The notes: a model not told the origin generated them from the letters alone. A stretch of DNA of 64,000 nt from Cyanosarcina radialis HA8281-LM2 (GCA_019359615.1 JAHHHA010000006.1:186001-250000); one strand, 5' to 3'; shown: positions 32,473 to 46,206, counted from the stretch's first letter. A program made the numbers and translations.

Positions 32473-33051
32473 TCAATCTTCTTCTGCCCGTAGAAGTTGC
32501 TTGGCAGTTAATTCTAAGGTAGGAAATATTGGGGGAACGATCGCATCATTCCCCTGATAAATTGTTTGCTCGTACAATCCATCTACCAAAGACAAAACTA
32601 CTACTCGATCGCTTTCTGGATCGACAATCCAATACTCAGCAATTCCGCGTGCTTCATATTGCGATCTCTTGTAACGATAGTCTCGATTTTCGTTTTCTTT
32701 CCCTGGCGAAACTACTTCTACCACCAACACTGGTGGCGGCATATCGCTAGTAATAATACTGCGAGCAGATCCAGATAAAGCGGTAGCTGCTTCCTCCGTC
32801 AACACGAGCAAATCTGGGACGCGCACTGTAGCACGAGAACCGCTGACTGAAACTTCTGTTCCCCGACGCAGCAATCTTCCTGGAGTTAACCGACTAAATG
32901 TTAACAACAAAAAGATAGCGATCGCATTATTCAAGTCGCTTTCTGACGGTATCTCAACTAATTCTCCATTCACCAATTCGTAGCGCTTATCTGTGCCGTC
33001 ATCGTAAGCCAGATACTCTTCCAAGGTGAATATTTTGGTAGTAGCAATCAT
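32473..33051 (-). CDS. Uma2-family (DUF820) PD-(D/E)xK protein
   Basis: 192 residues: KIFTLEEYLAYDDGTDKRYE, then LVNGELVEIPS, VRVPDLLVL, PPVLVVEVVSPGKENENRDY with the E-V-x-S core Glu, and AEYWIVDPESDRVVVL. The fold is a restriction-endonuclease-like core, massively expanded in cyanobacterial genomes; cellular role unknown. Complete. The 284-bp region upstream (33052-33335) holds only an incomplete frame without a proper start. Confidence 0.93.
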   Translation of the reverse strand: MIATTKIFTLEEYLAYDDGTDKRYELVNGELVEIPSESDLNNAIAIFLLLTFSRLTPGRLLRRGTEVSVSGSRATVRVPDLLVLTEEAATALSGSARSIITSDMPPPVLVVEVVSPGKENENRDYRYKRSQYEARGIAEYWIVDPESDRVVVLSLVDGLYEQTIYQGNDAIVPPIFPTLELTAKQLLRAEED

Positions 33052-33335: not shown

Positions 33336-34793
33336 TTAAGGAACGATATCCTTGACTAAAATTGTACCAGCCGCAGTTCCATCACTCTTATATAGCTCTA
33401 ATCCAGTAGCCCTGCTGTAAGCAACAAAGTACAGCTTGCCATTAACGTTAGTGAGATCGAAGAGACTGGAACCATCAGCACCAGGATTGATATCCTTGAC
33501 TAAGACCGTACCAGCGGCAGTCCCATTACTTTTGTACAATTCCAATCCGGTAGCCCTATTATAAGCACTAAAGTACAGCGTTCCATTGACATTGGTGAGA
33601 TCGTATATCCCACTATCACAAGCACCAGGACAGATATCCTTAACTAAGACTGTGCCAGTCACCGTGCCATTAGTTTTATACAATTCCAACCCACTTGCTG
33701 GAGTGGCGTTAGTAAAAAACAATGTCCCATTAACATTTGTCAGAGCGGATGGATAGCCGATTATCTTCTCGACCAAGACCGTGCCAGCCGCAGTACCATC
33801 AGTCTTGTATAGATCGGTTGTCCCATCGTCTCGGTAGGAAGTAGTAAAGTATAACGTGCCGTTGATATTGGTAAGGTAATATGGCCCATACCGATAATCC
33901 GTAAAAGGAATAATATCCTTGATGAGAGCAGTGCCTAATTCGGTGCCATTACTTTTGTATAGTTCGTAACCAGTTGCAGGGTTGTAGGCAATAAAGTACA
34001 ATTTCCCATTAACTTTCTTAAAATAATGTGGTCCAGACCCAGCAGCACCACGATTGATATCTTTAACTAAGATGGTGCCAGCAGACGTGCCATCGCTTTT
34101 GTATAGCTCAGTCCCCGTGGATGGCTTGTAGGCGGTGAAGTACAACGTCCCATTGACATTGGCAATCGTTTTGGTGGGGGAATTTTGGGTTAGGCTATCT
34201 GGTCTAGACGAACCAGTGCCAGGATTGAGATCTTTAACTAATACAGTGCCAGCGTTTGTGCCATCGCTCTTGTATAGCTCCCGACCAGTAGCTGGGTGGT
34301 TGGCAGTAAAGTACAACGTCCCATTGACGTTAGTGAGATTACGTGGGAAAGAATTAGCACCGCCAGGATTGATATCCTTGACAAGGACAGTGCCAGCGGC
34401 CGTGCCATCACTCTTGTAGAGTTCCCATCCAGTAGCTGGATTTTTAGCAGTAAAGTACAACTTGCCCTTGACATTGGTTAGCTCGATTGGGGAAAAATCA
34501 AGGGAAGAAGTATCGGGTAAAGAACTATTGGAACCAATATAGATATCCTTGACGAGAACCGTGCCAGCGGCCGTGCCATTGCTCTTGTATAGCTCCCGCC
34601 CAGTAGCTGGATGTTCGGCAGTAAAGTACAACGTCCCATTGACATTGGTCAGATACTTTGGAAAAGAAGAACCTCCGGTCGCTGTTTGAGTTGTTGCTGG
34701 CAGGGGTATCCCCAATATCAAACTAGAAATTAGACTGCCAGCCACTATTTTGCTAGCAGATTTCGCGACTGTTTTGAGCTTGATAAATCTCAT
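33336..34793 (-). CDS. Secreted ELWxxDGT-repeat protein
   Basis: 485 residues with AGGAG before the ATG, an N-terminal signal (SASKIVAGSLISSLILGIPL, cleavage after ATTQT) and about nine repeats of roughly 46 residues, each with LTNVNGTLYFTAEHPATGRE, LYKSNGTAAGTVLVKDI. The canonical ELWKSDGT is here ELYKSDGT/ELYKSNGT. It is probably a beta-propeller-like surface or periplasmic protein. Repeats are so alike that recombination within the gene is likely. Confidence 0.9.
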   Translation of the reverse strand: MRFIKLKTVAKSASKIVAGSLISSLILGIPLPATTQTATGGSSFPKYLTNVNGTLYFTAEHPATGRELYKSNGTAAGTVLVKDIYIGSNSSLPDTSSLDFSPIELTNVKGKLYFTAKNPATGWELYKSDGTAAGTVLVKDINPGGANSFPRNLTNVNGTLYFTANHPATGRELYKSDGTNAGTVLVKDLNPGTGSSRPDSLTQNSPTKTIANVNGTLYFTAYKPSTGTELYKSDGTSAGTILVKDINRGAAGSGPHYFKKVNGKLYFIAYNPATGYELYKSNGTELGTALIKDIIPFTDYRYGPYYLTNINGTLYFTTSYRDDGTTDLYKTDGTAAGTVLVEKIIGYPSALTNVNGTLFFTNATPASGLELYKTNGTVTGTVLVKDICPGACDSGIYDLTNVNGTLYFSAYNRATGLELYKSNGTAAGTVLVKDINPGADGSSLFDLTNVNGKLYFVAYSRATGLELYKSDGTAAGTILVKDIVP

Positions 34794-36634: not shown

Positions 36635-36661
36635 AGTCAAAGCAATTCGCAATATTTCCGT

Positions 36662-36711
36662 GTAGGGGCGCAAAGCTGTTCCGTAGCTCTGTCGAAGGAT
36701 TGCGCCCCTAC
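36662..36711. repeat. Dispersed palindrome (copy C) with about 22 bp inserted in its centre
   Basis: The arms GTAGGGGCGCAA and TTGCGCCCCTAC are intact, but between them lie about 26 bp including TCCGTAGCTCTGTCGAAGGA. The downstream part CCAAGATcTGTTGCA is shared with copies A and B. It separates menG from the defence-like operon. Confidence 0.85.
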
Positions 36712-36771
36712 CCAAGATCTGTTGCACCTCAAAGGCAAAATGATATAACAGATCTAAATTTGGAATCGGAA

Positions 36772-39700
36772 ATGCCTCGCATATTTGACAATATAGAACT
36801 ACCTTTACTGCTGACCTTACGAGATACGCTAAAAGTTGCTTATCGGGCGGATTTTTGTGTCGGTTATTTCAACCTTAGAGGTTGGCAGAAAATAGACGAT
36901 TTAATCGAGCAGTTGGTAGGTGGAAAAAGTTCTTGTTGTCGTCTGCTGGTGGGGATGCAAAGTTTGCCAAGCGATGAAGTTCGTGCTGCTTTTACTCTAG
37001 GAACTGGCGATGGACGCATCGATAATAGCACTATCTTGCGCTGCAAAAAACAGATGGCTGCTCAATTTAGACAGCAGCTTACTATTGGTGCGCCTACTAA
37101 TCGAGATGAAGCGGGTTTGAGGAGTTTAAGCAAACAGATTAAGGCAGAAAAAGTAACGATTAAATTATTTTTGCGCCATCCCCTACACGCTAAGTTATAT
37201 CTCGTCCACCGTCACGATCCTAATACTCCTATAGTTGGTTTTTTGGGTAGTAGCAATCTGACTTTGCCTGGACTGTCAAAACAGGGGGAATTGAATGTTG
37301 ATGTTTTAGACCACGATGCTTGTAATAAGCTGCAAAAATGGTTCGACGATCGCTGGCAAGATTACGGTTGTATAGACATCTCCCAAGAATTAGCCGCCAT
37401 TATTGATGAGAGTTGGGCGAGAGAGGAATTAATTCCGCCTTACCATATTTACTTGAAGATTGCTTATCATTTATCCCACGAAGCGATCGCAGGACTTTCT
37501 GAATTTCGCATCCCAGCTGAATTTAACAACTTATTTGAGTTTCAAAAAGCCGCCGTGCAACTAGCAGCGCGTCATGTCACCAAACGCGGTGGTGTATTGG
37601 TTGGAGATGTAGTTGGTTTAGGAAAAACATTAGTAGGAACTGCTGTCGCTAAAATTTTACAAGAGGATTGTTTGCTAGAAACATTGATTATTTGCCCCAA
37701 AAATCTGGTAAAAATGTGGCAGGAATATGTAGACAGCTATCGACTATATGCCAAAGTTTTGCCTATTAGCAAGGTTCAAAGTCAGTTACCAGAGTTGCGG
37801 CGATATCGAGTCGTTTTAATTGATGAAAGCCACAATTTGCGGAATCGAGAAGGAAAAAGATACAGGGCGATCGCTGAATATATTGCGGCTAATGAAAGTA
37901 AATGTATCTTACTATCTGCCACTCCTTATAACAAAACTTATCTGGATCTTTCTGCCCAATTGCGGTTATTTGTGGCGGAAGATCGAGATTTGGGATTTCG
38001 GCCGGAAGCTTTACTCAATGAATTGGGTGGAGGTTCGGTAGGAGAATTAGAGTTTATTAGAAAACATCAATGTTCTGTACGTTCCTTAGCGGCGTTTGAA
38101 AAAAGCGATCGTCCCGACGATTGGCGAGAGTTGATGAAACGCTATATGGTAAGGAGAACTCGCTCATTTATCAAAGAAAACTACGCTCAAACGGATGAAA
38201 CAGGTCGCAAGTATTTAGAGTTTCCCGATCGCAGTCGTTCTTATTTTCCCGAACGTCTTCCTCGAACAGTCAAATTTAATTTTGAAACTAGCAATAAAGA
38301 TAATTACTCGCAACTATATTCCGAGCCGTTAGTGGAAGTAATCGACCGACTTAATCTACCTCGCTATGGACTAGGAACGTACATTCTTCCTAAACCAAAA
38401 CAACCTTTGACGGAAACCGAACAGCACCAGCTTAATGCTTTATTTCGGGGCGGACGCAGGTTAATGGGATTTTCCCGCACTAATTTATTCAAACGTTTAG
38501 AAAGTAGCGGTATTGCCTTTCTTCAGTCGATCGAACGCCACATTTTGCGGAACTTTGTTTATTTGTATGCGATCGAACAAGGATTAGATATTCCTATTGG
38601 CGTTCAAGAAGCAGATCTATTAGATTCCCGCAATAACGACGAAGATTCAGATTCCTCTTTCTCTACATTGTTCGATCTAGAAATAGAAGATGAGGCAGGA
38701 CAGCCTGAAAGCCCCACTTTATCAGAGGAGTTGGAGGAATCTAAAAGCCCCCTTTTCCCAGGGGCGCTGGCGGAGTCTAAACTAGAAAATAATTTCCGTC
38801 AATCTGCCAAATCTGTTTATCAAGAATATACTACCAAATATCAACGACGATTTAAGTGGCTATCTGGTACATTTTTCGATCTTAAAAGGCTGAAACACGA
38901 CCTGCTAGCAGATGCTAAATCACTCATTAATATCTTACAAAATTTTGGAGATTGGCACTCTCACGACGATGAAAAACTAGCAGCTTTAATTACACTGCTA
39001 ACTGAAACTCACCCTAACGATAAGGTACTAATTTTTACTCAATTTGCCGATACAGTTCGCTACCTGGCTGACAATTTACAGGCGAGAAATATTACCAAGT
39101 TAGCAGGAGTAACAGGACAATCGAAAGATCCTACAGAATTGGTAACTAGATTTAGTCCTATTAGTAGTGGTAGCCCATTAAAAGTAACGCCCGATCGAGA
39201 AGTGCGAGTTTTAATTGCCACTGATGTTTTGAGTGAAGGTCATAACCTCCAAGACTGTGCCATCATTGTCAATTATGACTTACCTTGGGCAATAATCCGG
39301 TTGATTCAACGAGCCGGACGAGTAGATCGAATCGGACAAAAAGCAGAAAAAATCATTTGTTATTCGTTTCTGCCATCTGAAGGGGTAGAAAGAATTATTA
39401 ACTTGCGATCGCGCCTGCGACAGAGGTTGCAAGAAAATGCCGAAGTAGTAGGAACTGATGAAGCATTTTTTGAAGACGATTCTACTCAAGTAGTTCTCGA
39501 TCTCTACAACGAGAAATCTGGGATTTTGGATGGGGATGAAGATACAGAAGTAGACCTAACTTCGGAAGCATTTCAAATCTGGAAAAAAGCCACCGACAGC
39601 AATCCGGCTTTGAAAAAAACGATTGAAGATCTGCCCAATGTAGTCTATTCTACCCGCGCCCATACTCCCACACCAGGGCAACCAGAAGGCGTACTGCTTT

Positions 39701-40206
39701 ACATGAAAACCAATGAAGGTAACGATTCTCTAGCATGGGTCGATTGTCAGGGTAACAGCGTCACCCAGTCTCAATTGGCAGTTTTACGGATGGCGGCGTG
39801 CGAGGAATCGACTCCAGCAAGATCGAAAGACGAACAGCACCACGAGTTAGTGAAAAAGGGTGCGGAACTGATTGCAGAAGAAGAGAAAAATGCTGGCGGT
39901 CAATTGGGAAGACCTTCGGGTGCAAGGTTTCGTACCTACGAACGACTCAAGAATTATGCTAAAGAAATGAAAGGGACAATATTTGTTTCTGAAGAACTTT
40001 TGAAAGCGATCGAGGAAATTTACCGTTACCCCTTAAGACAGTCGGCGATCGATACTTTAAACCGTCAACTCAGAAGCGGAATTAGCGATCGACAATTGGC
40101 TGAATTAGTAGTTGCTTTGCGGACAGACGATCGCTTGTGCATTGTTAGCGAAGAAGCTGAAAAACGAGAACCGCAAATTATTTGTTCTTTGGGATTATTT
40201 TTATGA
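36772..40206 (+). CDS. PLD-domain SNF2-type DEAD/DEAH helicase
   Basis: 1144 residues from ATG 36772 (MPRIFDNIELPLLLTLRDTL); the frame upstream is repeat sequence. Residues 1-200 form a phospholipase-D-like domain with H139-A-K141 and GSSN at 159-162. SF2 motor: Walker A GDVVGLGKT (about 278-286), DESH from residue 351, LLSATPYNK, then helicase C LIFTQFADTVRYLADNL, DVLSEGHNLQD and QRAGRVDRIG (near 846). A charged linker near 640-670 (EDEAGQPESPTLSEELEESK) looks inserted. The architecture occurs in restriction/defence loci, where it would translocate on or remodel foreign DNA. First gene of a five-gene run; its stop overlaps the next start (ATGA). Confidence 0.88.
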   Translation: MPRIFDNIELPLLLTLRDTLKVAYRADFCVGYFNLRGWQKIDDLIEQLVGGKSSCCRLLVGMQSLPSDEVRAAFTLGTGDGRIDNSTILRCKKQMAAQFRQQLTIGAPTNRDEAGLRSLSKQIKAEKVTIKLFLRHPLHAKLYLVHRHDPNTPIVGFLGSSNLTLPGLSKQGELNVDVLDHDACNKLQKWFDDRWQDYGCIDISQELAAIIDESWAREELIPPYHIYLKIAYHLSHEAIAGLSEFRIPAEFNNLFEFQKAAVQLAARHVTKRGGVLVGDVVGLGKTLVGTAVAKILQEDCLLETLIICPKNLVKMWQEYVDSYRLYAKVLPISKVQSQLPELRRYRVVLIDESHNLRNREGKRYRAIAEYIAANESKCILLSATPYNKTYLDLSAQLRLFVAEDRDLGFRPEALLNELGGGSVGELEFIRKHQCSVRSLAAFEKSDRPDDWRELMKRYMVRRTRSFIKENYAQTDETGRKYLEFPDRSRSYFPERLPRTVKFNFETSNKDNYSQLYSEPLVEVIDRLNLPRYGLGTYILPKPKQPLTETEQHQLNALFRGGRRLMGFSRTNLFKRLESSGIAFLQSIERHILRNFVYLYAIEQGLDIPIGVQEADLLDSRNNDEDSDSSFSTLFDLEIEDEAGQPESPTLSEELEESKSPLFPGALAESKLENNFRQSAKSVYQEYTTKYQRRFKWLSGTFFDLKRLKHDLLADAKSLINILQNFGDWHSHDDEKLAALITLLTETHPNDKVLIFTQFADTVRYLADNLQARNITKLAGVTGQSKDPTELVTRFSPISSGSPLKVTPDREVRVLIATDVLSEGHNLQDCAIIVNYDLPWAIIRLIQRAGRVDRIGQKAEKIICYSFLPSEGVERIINLRSRLRQRLQENAEVVGTDEAFFEDDSTQVVLDLYNEKSGILDGDEDTEVDLTSEAFQIWKKATDSNPALKKTIEDLPNVVYSTRAHTPTPGQPEGVLLYMKTNEGNDSLAWVDCQGNSVTQSQLAVLRMAACEESTPARSKDEQHHELVKKGAELIAEEEKNAGGQLGRPSGARFRTYERLKNYAKEMKGTIFVSEELLKAIEEIYRYPLRQSAIDTLNRQLRSGISDRQLAELVVALRTDDRLCIVSEEAEKREPQIICSLGLFL

Positions 40207-40694
40207 AGATAACAGAGTTACCAACAGAAGTTATTGACGACCTTTGCCAAGAAGATAATTGGCGATTAGACATCGATCCTGGATTTGATGCCAAGCATGA
40301 ATTTTGGATGAAGTGGCAACATTTCCTCGAATTACCAGAAGAAACATTTTCCTATTCAGAAATGAGCGAAGAGGATTTGGCTGATTTTATCGATTTCAAT
40401 GGTTTTGATATCTTGCTACCAGTCAGCCGTTCTCATCATCCCAATATTGAATTAATTCGTTCGATCTCAAGTAGCAATGAAAAGACCATAACACTTTTCT
40501 TGCATGATTCTTTTCATCAAGATTGCTTTACCAGCATACACGATGCCAGATATGGTTTTTTAGCTGTAGCCGATCGCTACGAGAAATTTGGTTGCAGTTT
40601 TTATTTAGCAAGTTACTACCATTTTTGCTATTTACTCAATGATGATTATGAATTTGCCAAGCAAATAATGCAGAGAAAGTTATCCCAAAATTAG
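40203..40694 (+). CDS. Unknown acidic protein coupled to the helicase
   Basis: 163 residues from the ATG at 40203, which overlaps the helicase stop in ATGA, so translation is coupled. The protein is acidic, with Trp- and Phe-rich pieces (DAKHEFWMKWQHFLELPEET, DLADFIDFNGFDILLPVSRS, HDSFHQDCFTSIHDARYGFL) and many aromatics. No family recognised; no catalytic motif obvious. The coupling and spacing suggest a dedicated partner, inhibitor or adaptor of the helicase. Confidence 0.75.
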   Translation: MKITELPTEVIDDLCQEDNWRLDIDPGFDAKHEFWMKWQHFLELPEETFSYSEMSEEDLADFIDFNGFDILLPVSRSHHPNIELIRSISSSNEKTITLFLHDSFHQDCFTSIHDARYGFLAVADRYEKFGCSFYLASYYHFCYLLNDDYEFAKQIMQRKLSQN

Positions 40695-40700
40695 ATATTC

Positions 40701-40753
40701 GTAGGTTGGGTTGTAGGCGTAGCCTTCCCGCAGGGTACGAAGTGAAACCCAAC
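40701..40753. repeat. Dispersed inverted repeat GTAGGTTGGGTT...AACCCAAC inside the operon
   Basis: The arms GGTTGGGTT and GAAACCCAAC surround about 30 bp (GGCGTAGCCTTCCCGCAGGG). Related copies are at 56590-56620 and 57604-57634. It fills the only sizeable gap (99 bp) of the operon and could reduce transcription or processing between the second and third genes. Confidence 0.75.
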
Positions 40754-40793
40754 ACCCCCCGTAAATGTTAGGTTTTTTATTAGGAGTGCGATC

Positions 40794-41810
40794 GTGAGCG
40801 AAATAAACACAGAAAATTATGGCGAACTGCTAGTTGCTGTTAAGCAGCGCATTCTTACTGCTCAGTATGAAGCACTGAAAGCAGTTAACCAAGAACTGAT
40901 TGCTTTATATTGGGATATTGGTAAGTTAATTGTCACTCGTCAACAAGGCGAAACTTGGGGAAAATCGGTAGTAAAGAACCTTTCTCAAGACTTACAAGCT
41001 GAATTTACTGGTATTCATGGTTTTTCTGCCGCCAATCTTTGGCGCATGAAGCTTTTTTATGAAACTTATATCAATAATGAAAAACTCGCACCAATGGTGC
41101 GAGAAATTAGTTGGACGCACAATTTGGTGATTATGGAGAAGTGCAAAGATGATTTAGAGCGAGAATTCTACATCCGTATGACGCGGAAGTTTGGCTGGAC
41201 AAAAAATGTCTTAATTCATCAAATTGAAAATCAAACTTATGAAAAAACTCTGCTAAATCAAACCAATTTTGACACGACTATACCAGAAGAAGCTCTCTCT
41301 CAGGCTAAGTTAGCAGTTAAAGATGAGTACACGTTTGACTTTTTAGAACTGGGAGATCAATACAACGAACGTCAGTTAGAGCAAGCCATCTTAGCTAAAA
41401 TTGAATCATTCTTACGAGAAATGGGTGGAATCTTTGCCTTTGTCGGCAGTCAGTATCGCTTGGAGGTTAGCAATAAAGAATATTTTATCGATTTATTGTT
41501 ATTTCACCGCCGCTTGAAATGTTTGCTAGCGATCGAACTAAAAACTGGTGATTTTTTGCCGGAATATGTAGGGAAAATGCAGTTCTATTTAGCGGTATTA
41601 AATGACAAGGTACGGCTAGATGATGAAAATCCTGCAATGGGTATTATTCTTTGTAAGTCTAAGGATAAAACCATTGTGGAGTATGCACTTAAGGAGTCGA
41701 ATAAACCTATTGGCATAGCAACCTATCGAATAGTTTCTCAATTACCTCAAGAATTGCAGAACGAACTTCCCGCACCCGAACAAATAGCAAAATTATTAGA
41801 GGGACTTTAA
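40794..41810 (+). CDS. DUF1016/YhcG-type PDDEXK nuclease
   Basis: 338 residues, GTG start with AGGAG 7 bp before it. The N-terminal domain (ALKAVNQELIALYWDIGKLI, WGKSVVKNLSQDL, GFSAANLWRMKLFYETY) and C-terminal PDDEXK domain (EYFIDLLLFHRRLKCLLAIE followed by LKTG) are typical of DUF1016. The Asp and E-L-K catalytic residues are present. Such proteins are frequent next to restriction-modification genes. Its stop codon directly abuts the ATG of the methyltransferase gene, so coexpression is nearly certain. Confidence 0.92.
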   Translation: MSEINTENYGELLVAVKQRILTAQYEALKAVNQELIALYWDIGKLIVTRQQGETWGKSVVKNLSQDLQAEFTGIHGFSAANLWRMKLFYETYINNEKLAPMVREISWTHNLVIMEKCKDDLEREFYIRMTRKFGWTKNVLIHQIENQTYEKTLLNQTNFDTTIPEEALSQAKLAVKDEYTFDFLELGDQYNERQLEQAILAKIESFLREMGGIFAFVGSQYRLEVSNKEYFIDLLLFHRRLKCLLAIELKTGDFLPEYVGKMQFYLAVLNDKVRLDDENPAMGIILCKSKDKTIVEYALKESNKPIGIATYRIVSQLPQELQNELPAPEQIAKLLEGL

Positions 41811-44800
41811 ATGACCATTAATTTTCAGCAAAGTCGCAAATTTCTCCAAGATTTTAAATTTAATGACTTATTCGTCCAGCAATTAGGGTGGTCATTTCCC
41901 TCTACAGAAAAAGCGATAACGATCGCCCTCGATAATGCGACTTACTCTAGTCAAGCGATCGCCCAGTTGTCGGGAGTGGTGGTGTTTGAAATTACGTCGG
42001 CTGACGGTCAAATTCCTAATGCGACAGCGAGAAAGTCGATTTATACTAAAATAGCTGAGTTAGTGCGGGAAAATCTCCTAATTTTTATCGATGGCGATCG
42101 CACTCGCTCTTTATGGTATTGGGTAAAGCAAGAAGGTACGAAAATTTATCCCCGCGACCACGCTTACGTGAAGCAAGAACCGTGCGATTTGCTGTTAAGT
42201 AAAATTAGTGCGTTACAAGTAGATTTAGAAGAATTAGAAACCATATCTGTAATTGATATTGCCGATCGCTTGCAACGCGGTTTTGATGTCGAGCGCGTCA
42301 CTAAGAGGTTTTTTGAAGAGTATAAGTTACAGCATACAGCTTTACTCGACTCGCAAGTTGGCATTCAAGGAATTGCTAATGAAGCAGACAGGCGATGGTA
42401 TGCTTCTGTCATTCTCAATCGTCTAATGTTCGTATATTTTCTGCAACGTAAAGGCTTTATAGATAACGAGAAAAGTTTGTATTTACAAGAGAAGTTAAAA
42501 GAGAGTCAGCAACGGGGAACTAACTTATTTTATAGCGAGTTTTTGCCAGCATTGTTCTTTGAAGGCTTTGGCAAACCAGAATATCTGCGATCGAATAACA
42601 CCAAGACGCTAATTGGTGATGTTAAATATTTGAATGGGGGATTATTTTTAAAACACAGAATCGAGCAAGAATATCCTCAAATTACGATTCCCGATGCAGC
42701 TTTTGAAAATATCTTCAAGCTATTTGCTGGTTTCTCTTGGAATTTGGATGACACGCCAGGAGGAAAAGAGAACGAACTCAATCCTGCTGTTTTAGGTTAC
42801 ATTTTTGAGAAATATATTAACCAAAAGGCTTTTGGAGCGTATTATACCCGTCCAGAGATTACAGAATATCTCTGCGAGAGGACGATCGACAAACTCATCC
42901 TCGATCGCATCAACAAACTATTTTTGACTTCGGCGAATGAATTCGCGGCTACACAATCGAAGTCCGCCTGCGCGGACTTGAAGTTTGAAAGCATTACCGA
43001 ACTCTTAACTAGGCTGGATGCTAATCTTTGTCGTCGCTTGTTAGATGAGATTTTACCTCATCTTTCTCTCCTCGATCCTGCTTGCGGTTCTGGTGCTTTT
43101 TTAATCGCGGCGATGCAAAGGCTGATTTATGTCTATTCAGCAGTAATTGCTACTATTGAAGTTAGAATTACAGACCACTACCTCAGAGATAAACTACAAA
43201 AAATTAGAGTAGAACATCCTTCTCTAAACTATTACATTAAAAAGCGGATTATTACCGATAACCTCTACGGTGTAGACATCATGGAGGAAGCGACGGAAAT
43301 TGCCAAATTACGTCTATTTTTAGCGTTGGTTTCTTCGGCTCATGATGTCGATGAATTAGAACCGCTACCAAATATTGACTTTAACATTATGGCGGGTAAT
43401 TCGCTAATTGGTTTGATTCGAGTTGATGAAACGGGCTTTGATATTATAGGCGATTCAGAGAATTTGCAAGGCAACTTGTTACAGCCTTTAGCAGCAGCTA
43501 ACTACAAAGCAATTTTAGCCGATAAGAATCAATCTATTGAGCAGTATAAAAAACACGCCTTTTTGCCTGACGAACAACACGGAACGTCTCAAGAGTCTCG
43601 GTTGCTGATGCTACGCAGCCACATCGAGAACCTCAACCGCGAATCTCAAGAGAAATTGAATTTCTTACTCTTAGATGAGTTTAGTAAGCGTTTAGGGATT
43701 AAATATGAGGAAGTTCAGTTAACTGGTAAATCTAAGAAGCGTCTCTTAAATGTTGATGATATTGCGGTGTTGAAGCCGTTTCACTGGGGATATCACTTCG
43801 ATAAGGTTTTAGAACGCGGCGGGTTTGATGCAATTATCACTAATCCACCTTGGGAAATTTTCAAGCCTTATGCCAGAGAATTTTTTCTTCAGCACAATGA
43901 GTTAGTTAGAAAGAGTAAGATGGATATCAAAGCTTTTGAGAAAGAACAAGAAAAACTCTTAAAAGACTCTCAGATTGCTGCTACTTGGCTAGAGTATCTG
44001 AGTGAATTTCCTCATGTTAGTGCTTATTATCGTTCAGCAGAACAGTATAAAAATCAAATTTCGATCGTCAATGGTAAAAAAGCTGGCACTGATATTAACC
44101 TCTACAAGCTGTTTCTAGAACAATGCTTTAATCTCTTACGTGCTGGTGGGGAGTGTGGGATTATTGTACCTTCTGGTATTTATACCGATCTCGGTACAAA
44201 GCAGTTACGAGAAATGTTATTTTCTCAAACTGAGATTAATTCGCTCTTCGGAATATCAAACGAAAGATTTATTTTTGAAGGTGTAGATCATCGCTTTAAG
44301 TTTTCTCTAATGACTTTTGAAAAAGGAGGAGTAACTGACTCATTTATGGCAGCTTTTCGGATTAATCCGCGAGAAGCGATTAGAGTAAATAGGTTAGATA
44401 TGTTTCTCCATAATAAAGATGAGCAGGTTGAGATTTCTGTACCGCTTGTTCGCCGTTTGTCTCCTGATTCTCTTTCAATAACAGAGTTTAAAAATGAGAT
44501 AGATGTACGCATTGTGGAGAAAATGCTTAAGTTTCCATTGTTAGGAGAAAAGATAGATGGGAAGTGGAATTTGCGATTAACTGCGGAATTTCACATGACC
44601 AATGACAGTCATTTGTTCAAGCAACAGCCTGGTAAAGGGAGATTACCTCTTTATGAAGGTAAGATGATCGAGCAATTTACTCATAAACTTTGTGAACCTC
44701 GTTATTGGATAGAAGAATCAGAGGGAAGAACAGCTTTAATAGGAAAAAAGAAAGATGAAGGACGGACTTTAGACTATCAGACTTACAGGGCTGGATTTCG

Positions 44801-45833
44801 TAAAATAGCAAGCTCAACCAACTCCCGGACTATGGTAGCAACAGTTATTCCGCAGAGCTTTCATGCAGAAAATTTTCAATCAGTGTTGCGCTACTCAGAA
44901 GAAATTAGTAACCCAATAAAGAACCATCATTGTTTATATTTAATATCTATTTGGAATAGTTTTGTACTCGATTATGCACTTCGGTTTCGAGTTTCGGCCA
45001 ACATCAACTTTTTTTATGTCTACCAACTACCAATACCGCGATTAATGGAGGGCGATCGCTTCTTCAACGAAATCGTCCAACGCACCGCCAAACTAATCTG
45101 CACCACTCCAGAATTTGACGAATTAGCTGTAGAGACATTAAATTTAACGTCTCTACAATGTGGCGTTACCGACGAAACAGAACGCGCCCAACTGCGAGCA
45201 GAACTCGACGGCATGGTAGCGCATCTCTACGGCTTAACCGAAGAAGAATTTACCTACATCCTCACAACCTTTCCTCTAGTTTCTGAAACAGTCAAACAGG
45301 CAGCATTAGAAGCTTATCGCGCCCTTGTACCCCAACCAACAGACGCAGAACTTACCGCATTAATACAGCAAGGCGAAAGCGCCGAACTCGACTTCAAAGC
45401 TTCTGCTTGGTGGGATATTCCGCATAACAAAAAGGAGAAATTCAACAAACGCATTCCTGAAACCGTTGCCGCCTTTTTAAATGTCGAAAAAGGAGGAACA
45501 TTACTGATTGGTATCGACGACGATCGCACAGTTGTTGGCATTGAGTACGACTACAACAAAAAGTTTGATAATTGCAAGAACCGCGATGTTTACGAAAATA
45601 ACTTGATGACCAGCTTGCTAAATGCTTGCGGTCGAGATTGCGGCACTTCGATTCAGATTAGCTTCGGTCAAATAGAAGGCAAAGATGTGTGTCGAGTCAC
45701 TATCAAGCCATCTCCGCGACCTGTATATATTAAAGATGGACAAGAAGAGTATTTTTACATTCGTGCAGGTAACTCTACGCGATCGCTCGGTGTCAGAGAA
45801 GCCACCGATTATATCAAGAACCGTTGGAGATAG
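41811..45833 (+). CDS. Eco57I-like N6-adenine DNA methyltransferase fused to an AlbA_2/Schlafen-type domain
   Basis: 1340 residues. The N-terminal region (1-150) resembles the nuclease-like module of large type IIG proteins (LLIFIDGDRTRSLWYWVKQE). Methyltransferase motif I DPACGSGAFLIAAMQ is near 422-436 and the catalytic NPPW at 678-681 (IITNPPWEIFKPY). A specificity-like region fills about 850-1120. The C-terminus (about 1180-1340) is an AlbA_2/Schlafen AAA_4-type domain: GESAELDFKASAWWDI, GGTLLIGIDDDRTVVGIEY, YFYIRAGNSTRSL. The fusion joins modification with a domain known from Schlafen and defence proteins. Two palindromic repeats lie in frame inside the gene. No obvious cleavage domain beyond the uncertain N-terminus. 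Confidence 0.88.
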   Translation: MTINFQQSRKFLQDFKFNDLFVQQLGWSFPSTEKAITIALDNATYSSQAIAQLSGVVVFEITSADGQIPNATARKSIYTKIAELVRENLLIFIDGDRTRSLWYWVKQEGTKIYPRDHAYVKQEPCDLLLSKISALQVDLEELETISVIDIADRLQRGFDVERVTKRFFEEYKLQHTALLDSQVGIQGIANEADRRWYASVILNRLMFVYFLQRKGFIDNEKSLYLQEKLKESQQRGTNLFYSEFLPALFFEGFGKPEYLRSNNTKTLIGDVKYLNGGLFLKHRIEQEYPQITIPDAAFENIFKLFAGFSWNLDDTPGGKENELNPAVLGYIFEKYINQKAFGAYYTRPEITEYLCERTIDKLILDRINKLFLTSANEFAATQSKSACADLKFESITELLTRLDANLCRRLLDEILPHLSLLDPACGSGAFLIAAMQRLIYVYSAVIATIEVRITDHYLRDKLQKIRVEHPSLNYYIKKRIITDNLYGVDIMEEATEIAKLRLFLALVSSAHDVDELEPLPNIDFNIMAGNSLIGLIRVDETGFDIIGDSENLQGNLLQPLAAANYKAILADKNQSIEQYKKHAFLPDEQHGTSQESRLLMLRSHIENLNRESQEKLNFLLLDEFSKRLGIKYEEVQLTGKSKKRLLNVDDIAVLKPFHWGYHFDKVLERGGFDAIITNPPWEIFKPYAREFFLQHNELVRKSKMDIKAFEKEQEKLLKDSQIAATWLEYLSEFPHVSAYYRSAEQYKNQISIVNGKKAGTDINLYKLFLEQCFNLLRAGGECGIIVPSGIYTDLGTKQLREMLFSQTEINSLFGISNERFIFEGVDHRFKFSLMTFEKGGVTDSFMAAFRINPREAIRVNRLDMFLHNKDEQVEISVPLVRRLSPDSLSITEFKNEIDVRIVEKMLKFPLLGEKIDGKWNLRLTAEFHMTNDSHLFKQQPGKGRLPLYEGKMIEQFTHKLCEPRYWIEESEGRTALIGKKKDEGRTLDYQTYRAGFRKIASSTNSRTMVATVIPQSFHAENFQSVLRYSEEISNPIKNHHCLYLISIWNSFVLDYALRFRVSANINFFYVYQLPIPRLMEGDRFFNEIVQRTAKLICTTPEFDELAVETLNLTSLQCGVTDETERAQLRAELDGMVAHLYGLTEEEFTYILTTFPLVSETVKQAALEAYRALVPQPTDAELTALIQQGESAELDFKASAWWDIPHNKKEKFNKRIPETVAAFLNVEKGGTLLIGIDDDRTVVGIEYDYNKKFDNCKNRDVYENNLMTSLLNACGRDCGTSIQISFGQIEGKDVCRVTIKPSPRPVYIKDGQEEYFYIRAGNSTRSLGVREATDYIKNRWR
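42960..42979. repeat. In-frame palindrome inside the methyltransferase gene
   Basis: AAGTCCGCC TG CGCGGACTT, a hairpin encoding the peptide around SKSACADLK (about residues 383-390), preceded by GAATGAATTCGCGGCTACAC. The peptide is out of character with the surrounding sequence, and this hairpin type is a common cyanobacterial spacer repeat, so it was probably inserted in frame. Confidence 0.6.
45129..45156. repeat. Second in-frame palindrome inside the methyltransferase gene
   Basis: GTAGAGAC...GTCTCTAC with AT-rich middle (ATTAAATTTAAC), encoding VETLNLTSLQ. It is a relative of the spacer palindrome at 27181. The frame is kept. Confidence 0.6.
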
Positions 45834-45834
45834 A

Positions 45835-46206
45835 ATGTGTTTGTACTATTCGGATCGAACCAGTTGGAGATTCGCAGCCATGAAACACCTATTTGAACCT
45901 CTGCGATCGCAGCCAGGAGAATTTCGGGTAGCGTTATGCCTCAGCCAACTCGGAGAATCAGCCTTTGAGGTGTTGAAGCTGGCTGAGTCTTTAGGGTTTG
46001 ATTCGCCAAAGTCGATCGGTGATTCAGCGGGTGAGGTTTGGGCAATTGTCCTGCAACAATTTCATGGCTATGAAGCAGATCCACGAGTTGTGGTCGATCC
46101 TTGGGACGAGCGATTATCCGAGATGTGGCAAGCCTGCGAACCAGATGCAGAATTAAAACTTCTCATCAGTCATAATTTTGAAGCTTATCATCTCAATGCT
46201 GTCTAG
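45835..46206 (+). CDS. Small unknown protein at the end of the defence-like operon
   Basis: 123 residues from the ATG at 45835, 1 bp after the methyltransferase stop; an ATG at 45880 (MKHLFEPLRSQPGEF) is an alternative. Contains HLFEPLRSQPGEFRVALCLS and DPWDERLSEMWQACEPDAEL. No family recognised. Its position suggests cotranscription with the methyltransferase gene, though it could be an unrelated tail gene. Confidence 0.6.
   Translation: MCLYYSDRTSWRFAAMKHLFEPLRSQPGEFRVALCLSQLGESAFEVLKLAESLGFDSPKSIGDSAGEVWAIVLQQFHGYEADPRVVVDPWDERLSEMWQACEPDAELKLLISHNFEAYHLNAV

Follow-up and report, generated by a model that had tools for sequence, protein, structure and literature searches.

Several described systems join a nuclease, a DNA motor and a methyltransferase. 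In the CglI/NgoAVII/BceSIV class a PLD (HxK) nuclease and a superfamily 2 (SF2) ATPase are combined with a methyltransferase, the recognised site is short and asymmetric, and cleavage is driven by ATP (PMC4267653); a B3 recognition domain belongs to the nuclease subunit and a Z1 domain to the ATPase, and 5-methylcytosine (m5C) is the product of the methyltransferase, while homologues with fused PLD and ATPase have already been noted for this class (PMC4267653). In SauUSI a single chain bears the PLD nuclease followed by the SF2 motor, with one HKD motif per chain, a dimeric active site and translocation (PMC7913695), and the enzyme cuts methylated DNA without a partner methyltransferase. A SNF2/RapA-like helicase together with a PglX-like methyltransferase is found in DISARM class I (DrmD and DrmMI), BREX-3 (BrxHII and BrxXI) and ARMADA (ArmA and ArmB) (PMC12458937), which need YprA/DrmAB, PglZ/BrxC or a YprA-Vsr partner. 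Type III enzymes follow a two-gene plan of motor-nuclease and specificity-bearing methyltransferase, but with a PD-(D/E)XK nuclease (PMC4267653); type ISP enzymes (LlaGI, LlaBIII) hold motor, Mrr-type nuclease, N6-methyltransferase and specificity region in one chain that acts on an asymmetric site, and type IIG/IIL enzymes (MmeI, Eco57I), including Ssp6803IV, share a methyltransferase plus specificity architecture. Here we describe a helicase-methyltransferase gene pair, probably a two-component restriction-modification system, from a locus at positions 36772-46206 of a 64,000-nt stretch of Cyanosarcina radialis HA8281-LM2 DNA (GCA_019359615.1 JAHHHA010000006.1:186001-250000; the window). The two core genes are as follows.

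36772..40206, + strand: core gene 1, a PLD (single HKD motif)-SNF2 helicase of 1144 aa (Pfam PLDc_2, SNF2-rel_dom, Helicase_C)
41811..45350, + strand: core gene 2, residues 1-1180 of a putative N6-adenine methyltransferase (Pfam Eco57I, invariant motif residues, AlphaFold fold match)

By its parts the pair comes closest to CglI/NgoAVII and to the association of an SNF2 helicase with a PglX-like methyltransferase in DISARM class I, BREX-3 and ARMADA, and suggests a minimal form of the latter, recurring combination. Unlike in CglI/NgoAVII, PLD and SNF2 lie on one chain, no B3 domain was detected and the methyltransferase, of the N6-adenine type, brings its own specificity region; matches to that class are confined to the NgoFVII PLD domain, and the Eco57I-type methyltransferase places the pair outside that class as defined. 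From DISARM class I, BREX-3 and ARMADA the pair differs by carrying nuclease and SNF2 motor in one fusion protein and by having none of their additional partners. DrmA, DrmB and DrmC were found neither in the operon nor among its ten nearest flanking genes (DrmA matches to the helicase reflect general SF2 similarity), PglZ had no match in the whole genome and BrxC none in the operon or flanking genes, the MZB (YprA-associated) domain occurred nowhere in the genome, and HsdS was found neither in the operon nor nearby, so that the locus falls outside DISARM, BREX, ARMADA and type I restriction-modification, respectively. Two genes and a PLD nuclease separate it from type ISP, i.e., a single polypeptide with an Mrr-like nuclease; compared with type IIG/IIL, a nuclease motif has been lost (its ExK is not conserved in the methyltransferase chain, which departs from the IIG definition) and a motor partner gained. 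The preliminary description of this DNA had recognised restriction- and defence-type parts, now confirmed by domain matches (PLDc_2, SNF2, Helicase_C; DUF1016_N, YhcG_C; Eco57I, SLFN_AlbA_2), and had seen no core proteins of DISARM, BREX or type I systems, which our searches of the operon and ten nearest flanking genes bear out.

Homologous loci were gathered using the helicase alone, so that the neighbouring genes were not presupposed; a few loci are represented twice and the set is mainly cyanobacterial, and the locus counts given here are thus not independent events. A methyltransferase open reading frame (ORF) or fragment lies within approximately 6 kb in 85 of the 90 loci with an intact helicase ORF, and two of the five exceptions are contig ends. 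Both genes are full length in 68 loci (62 distinct by helicase), with the helicase preceding the methyltransferase in 66 and following it in two. When 386 cyanobacterial genomes were searched for the helicase and, independently, for the methyltransferase N-terminus, 37 held both, seven the helicase only, two the methyltransferase only and 340 neither (Fisher 4e-42), i.e., a helicase sequence close to the present one occurs in 44/386 of the sampled genomes. The core genes overlap or abut with nothing between them in Riflebacteria, Clostridiales, Desulfuromonadales (Pelobacter plasmid), Actinomycetota (Rhodococcus plasmid) and Planctomycetota; phage records gave only distant helicase matches. 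The conserved unit is therefore a widespread two-gene pair, and the five genes that the preliminary description proposed as one operon do not recur as such, an outcome that this description had itself named as refuting its proposal. Type IV enzymes such as SauUSI act without a cognate methyltransferase, and the constant methyltransferase partner speaks against an enzyme of that kind.

The helicase is predicted from its motifs to be both motor and restriction nuclease. Its single HKD motif is strictly maintained (H139 and K141 in 68/68 homologues), the Walker A GDVVGLGKT and DESH motifs are kept in 67-68 of 68, and motif VI is intact too. Enzymes with a single HKD motif, i.e., BfiI, NgoAVII and SauUSI, use two chains per active site (PMC4267653; PMC7913695), and two helicase chains would therefore be needed here. 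The same domain combination is represented by PADLOC C3a139 (HKD+Snf2) and PLD_Helicase and by NCBIfam phospholipD_antiphage, to which the helicase has only partial, distant matches (159 and 92 bits for the PADLOC models, and 157 bits against a cut-off of 1100 for the NCBIfam model).

The methyltransferase carries motif I DPACGSGAF and motif IV NPPW, with the motif residues invariant, and a variable C-terminal specificity region at approximately residues 760-1120. Its AlphaFold model (mean predicted local distance difference test score (pLDDT) 75, predicted template modelling score (pTM) 0.68) is best over the N-terminus and catalytic core and poor in part of the specificity region, and matches BREX BrxX/PglX first, followed by CamA, BsaXI, DrdV, MmeI and LlaBIII. 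Motifs and model together predict a PglX/IIG-like enzyme of the N6-adenine type with putative activity. In the model, strands and helices over residues ~1-120 follow one another as in a PD-(D/E)XK nuclease, and the conserved ExK is absent from this domain in the alignment of relatives; on these grounds the N-terminal restriction fold is catalytically degenerate. Since this ExK is not conserved, it is most likely the helicase, through its PLD domain, that provides the nuclease of the system. On the Rhodococcus plasmid the helicase has an MmeI-like methyltransferase as its partner, and no nuclease domain is listed for the N-terminus of that protein.

The two proteins have co-evolved, and their histories agree unevenly along the methyltransferase. 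Mirror-tree comparison of the helicase with the methyltransferase N-terminus gave r = 0.90, against 0.65 overall for the specificity region and 0.46-0.49 at residues 941-1060. The helicases of Synechocystis 6803 and 7338 are 97% identical, and their methyltransferases are alike only at residues 1-361 (61%) and in the catalytic core (31%); at the DNA level the plasmids match at 93.5% over 4749 bp, ending approximately 105 codons into the methyltransferase gene. A second locus pair behaves alike (helicase 91.5%, specificity regions mostly unrelated). Because one 97%-identical helicase pairs with two methyltransferases of unrelated specificity domains, sequence specificity should reside in the methyltransferase, and the simplest reading is that one motor takes different methyltransferases by docking on their N-terminus. 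A helicase-borne recognition region tracking specificity was also considered and rejected, as none of the helicase segments followed the variation of the specificity region (partial |r| up to 0.23).

A link to a known DNA mark is offered by the pSYSX plasmid relative in Synechocystis 6803. Identity is 55% for its helicase (SGL_RS01585) and, for its methyltransferase (SGL_RS01600, probably slr6050), 40% in the N-terminal part and 34% in the core. M.Ssp6803IV and M.Ssp6803V have been placed on pSYSX (PMC6604393), and the motif of M.Ssp6803IV is GA(m6A)GGC, with 99.6% of GAAGGC sites modified (PMC7296061). The plasmid carries two annotated DNA methyltransferases, this relative and the type I subunit slr6095; since the latter is M.Ssp6803V, the former is very probably M.Ssp6803IV by elimination. 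Hagemann 2018 reportedly assigned M.Ssp6803IV to slr6050, which is consistent with the gene count. M.Ssp6803IV thereby gains a likely restriction partner, the mark being known and the neighbouring genes undiscussed in the papers found. A reference collection appears to file this methyltransferase as type IIG, because PADLOC type IIG model PDLC03628 matches it end to end (2662 bits).

Although common in cyanobacteria and present in several other phyla, the pair is apparently unnamed: none of the libraries searched (Pfam, PADLOC, NCBIfam) names it, and searches for the pair and for slr6050 in the main texts of openly available papers found none that describes the pair, although a name may exist elsewhere (supplementary tables, subscription journals, REBASE). 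The suggestion of an undescribed or rarely described system in the preliminary description is partly supported: none of the library models represents the two genes as one system, but the unit does not comprise five genes.

We consider the pair to be an ATP-dependent restriction-modification system of two components whose accessory genes can be exchanged, and put the probability of this at roughly 0.6. The methyltransferase would read a short asymmetric site through its C-terminal specificity region and methylate one of the two strands at adenine N6. Docking of the PLD-SNF2 protein, for which the inactive nuclease-fold domain at the methyltransferase N-terminus is the probable site, would give this protein the specificity of the methyltransferase. 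At an unmethylated site the SNF2 motor would hydrolyse ATP and travel along the DNA, until two PLD-SNF2 chains, each with one HKD half-site, meet to form a nuclease active site and cut both strands. Genes between the two (here a 163-aa orphan and a DUF1016 gene) and an AlbA_2 tail on the methyltransferase would be optional effectors or passengers. Complex formation, translocation, cleavage and phage defence are what we infer for the pair; with its known mark and its amenability to genetics, Synechocystis 6803 would allow this mechanism to be tested directly. The wider claim, that this is a distinct ATP-dependent restriction-modification type whose PLD-SNF2 motor-nuclease is interchangeable among PglX-like or MmeI-like methyltransferases docking via a dead PD-(D/E)XK domain, and which has a slot for toxin or nuclease cargo flanked by the core genes, is more tentative and falls a little short of an even chance.

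Several points weigh against a two-component restriction-modification system. No restriction, ATPase or phage data for any member were found in the papers searched; many relatives hold a broken helicase or methyltransferase, so that loss of the pair is frequent; helicase and methyltransferase can lie as much as 2.6 kb apart, with other genes between them; and the M.Ssp6803IV assignment is by elimination, together with what Hagemann 2018 is reported to have assigned.

The alternative that survives best, though unlikely, is a BREX/ARMADA-like protection without site-specific cutting, in which the pair would mark self DNA, the motor would block or clear unmarked phage DNA, and the PLD domain would be minor or conditional. 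The closest fold of the methyltransferase, BrxX/PglX, and the SNF2 helicase plus PglX-like methyltransferase common to DISARM class I, BREX-3 and ARMADA (PMC12458937; PMC12839542) are consistent with it; however, the extra components are absent nearby, PglZ and MZB domains are absent genome-wide, and the HKD nuclease kept in every full pair points to cutting. We give little credence to a self-sufficient, SauUSI-like type IV PLD-SNF2 enzyme with its own recognition domain, beside which the methyltransferase would be a separate epigenetic enzyme adjacent by chance. SauUSI does share the PLD-then-SF2 order and has a C-terminal recognition domain (PMC7913695), and approximately 240 C-terminal residues of our helicase are without domain assignment, but co-occurrence and co-evolution with the methyltransferase are strong and none of the helicase's segments tracks the specificity region. 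That the 1340-aa protein both cuts and methylates as a type IIG enzyme, with the helicase as an accessory, is very improbable: the end-to-end match of PDLC03628 to the Synechocystis relative would fit, but catalytic PD-(D/E)XK residues are not conserved in the N-terminal fold. An integrated five-gene system needing orphan, DUF1016, AlbA_2 tail and tail gene can hardly be upheld and was rejected, the tight junctions in the present genome notwithstanding, as the genes recur as a set in no other of the 68 full pairs (orphan in 1, DUF1016 in 6, AlbA_2 in 11).

The remaining features of the locus are listed below.

40203..40694, + strand: accessory gene 2, an acidic orphan of 163 aa (no match in Pfam, PADLOC or NCBIfam)
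40695..40793, no strand: intergenic dispersed repeat between accessory genes 2 and 3 (27 other matches in the genome)
40794..41810, + strand: accessory gene 3, a DUF1016/YhcG PD-(D/E)XK nuclease-family protein (Pfam YhcG_C 3.7e-61, DUF1016_N 5.6e-46; PADLOC candidate PDC-S02 1.4e-147)
45351..45833, + strand: optional C-terminal SLFN/AlbA_2 extension of the methyltransferase (Pfam SLFN_AlbA_2 8.7e-18)
45835..46206, + strand: gene 5, a downstream orphan ORF of 123 aa (no match in Pfam, PADLOC or NCBIfam)

Both DUF1016 and the AlbA_2 tail are optional, with at least five changes on the helicase tree for the former, whose two lineages are only ~43% identical, and at least seven for the latter. Gene 2, which the preliminary description regarded as an unrecognised protein coupled to the helicase, adjoins it at the present locus only; its homologues in other cyanobacteria sit in unrelated chromosomal or plasmid contexts, and it was rejected as a component. 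Its fold model (pLDDT 84) is possibly NTF2-like, the matches being weak (best E 0.04), and its family is small and cyanobacterial, including shorter plasmid-borne forms of ~125 aa. Membership of gene 5 is doubtful: no homologue was found in 39 related genomes, one paralogue lies elsewhere in its own genome, and its candidacy as a component has no support. In other genomes the slot holds VapBC, HEPN with a nucleotidyltransferase, BrnT, Uma2, DUF29, and Rpn-like or GIY-YIG-like genes, the last two labels having been assigned by eye. A similar arrangement is seen in the pSYSX type I restriction operon (NC_005232.1 88430-97901, L217), with the toxin-type genes Fic and HigB between the subunits.

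The preliminary description of five ORFs on one strand, with an ATGA overlap and 99-bp, 0-bp and 1-bp junctions, was reproduced in full. The ATGA overlap joins helicase and 163-aa orphan, the 99-bp gap separates the latter from the DUF1016 gene (start codon GTG), the 0-bp junction lies between DUF1016 and the whole methyltransferase ORF (41811-45833, 1340 aa), and the 1-bp junction between this and the 123-aa ORF, for which an alternative in-frame ATG upstream at 45685 is possible. The helicase length is counted from ATG, with an in-frame TTG upstream at 36700. Repeated DNA also lies 5' of the helicase (window 36635-36771; 27 other matches in the genome). Because dispersed repeats make up most of the 99-bp gap as well as some of the sequence 5' of gene 1, the single operon first proposed is not assured as one transcript, and genes 1-2 and 3-5 may be transcribed separately.

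Further observations concern related loci. In one helicase locus without a methyltransferase (L078:7883-11109) the genes that follow encode a UvrD-type helicase and a nuclease of the PDDEXK_1 family. L204 and L205 represent a sister subfamily, seen in Planctomycetota, whose PLD-SNF2 helicases are only 24-26% identical and likewise have a methyltransferase gene shortly downstream. At a planctomycete locus (L199:13701-16394) a PsyrA-like and a DpdA-like gene (DNA 7-deazaguanine modification) come after the pair, as does an ATPase and DUF4276 pair resembling PADLOC HEC-01 on Anabaena cylindrica plasmid pANACY.05 (L115:7503-9301).

The flanks of the present locus are ordinary, with a UbiE-type methyltransferase upstream and phosphate-transport-like genes downstream. 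A Uma2 family gene (PADLOC candidate PDC-S03), of a family also found between the core genes of several relatives, lies at window 32473-33051 on the minus strand, ~3.7 kb from the operon, and window 33336-34793, on the same strand, encodes a 485-aa protein of repeated units with the motif ELYKSDGTAAGTVLVKDI and no good family match.

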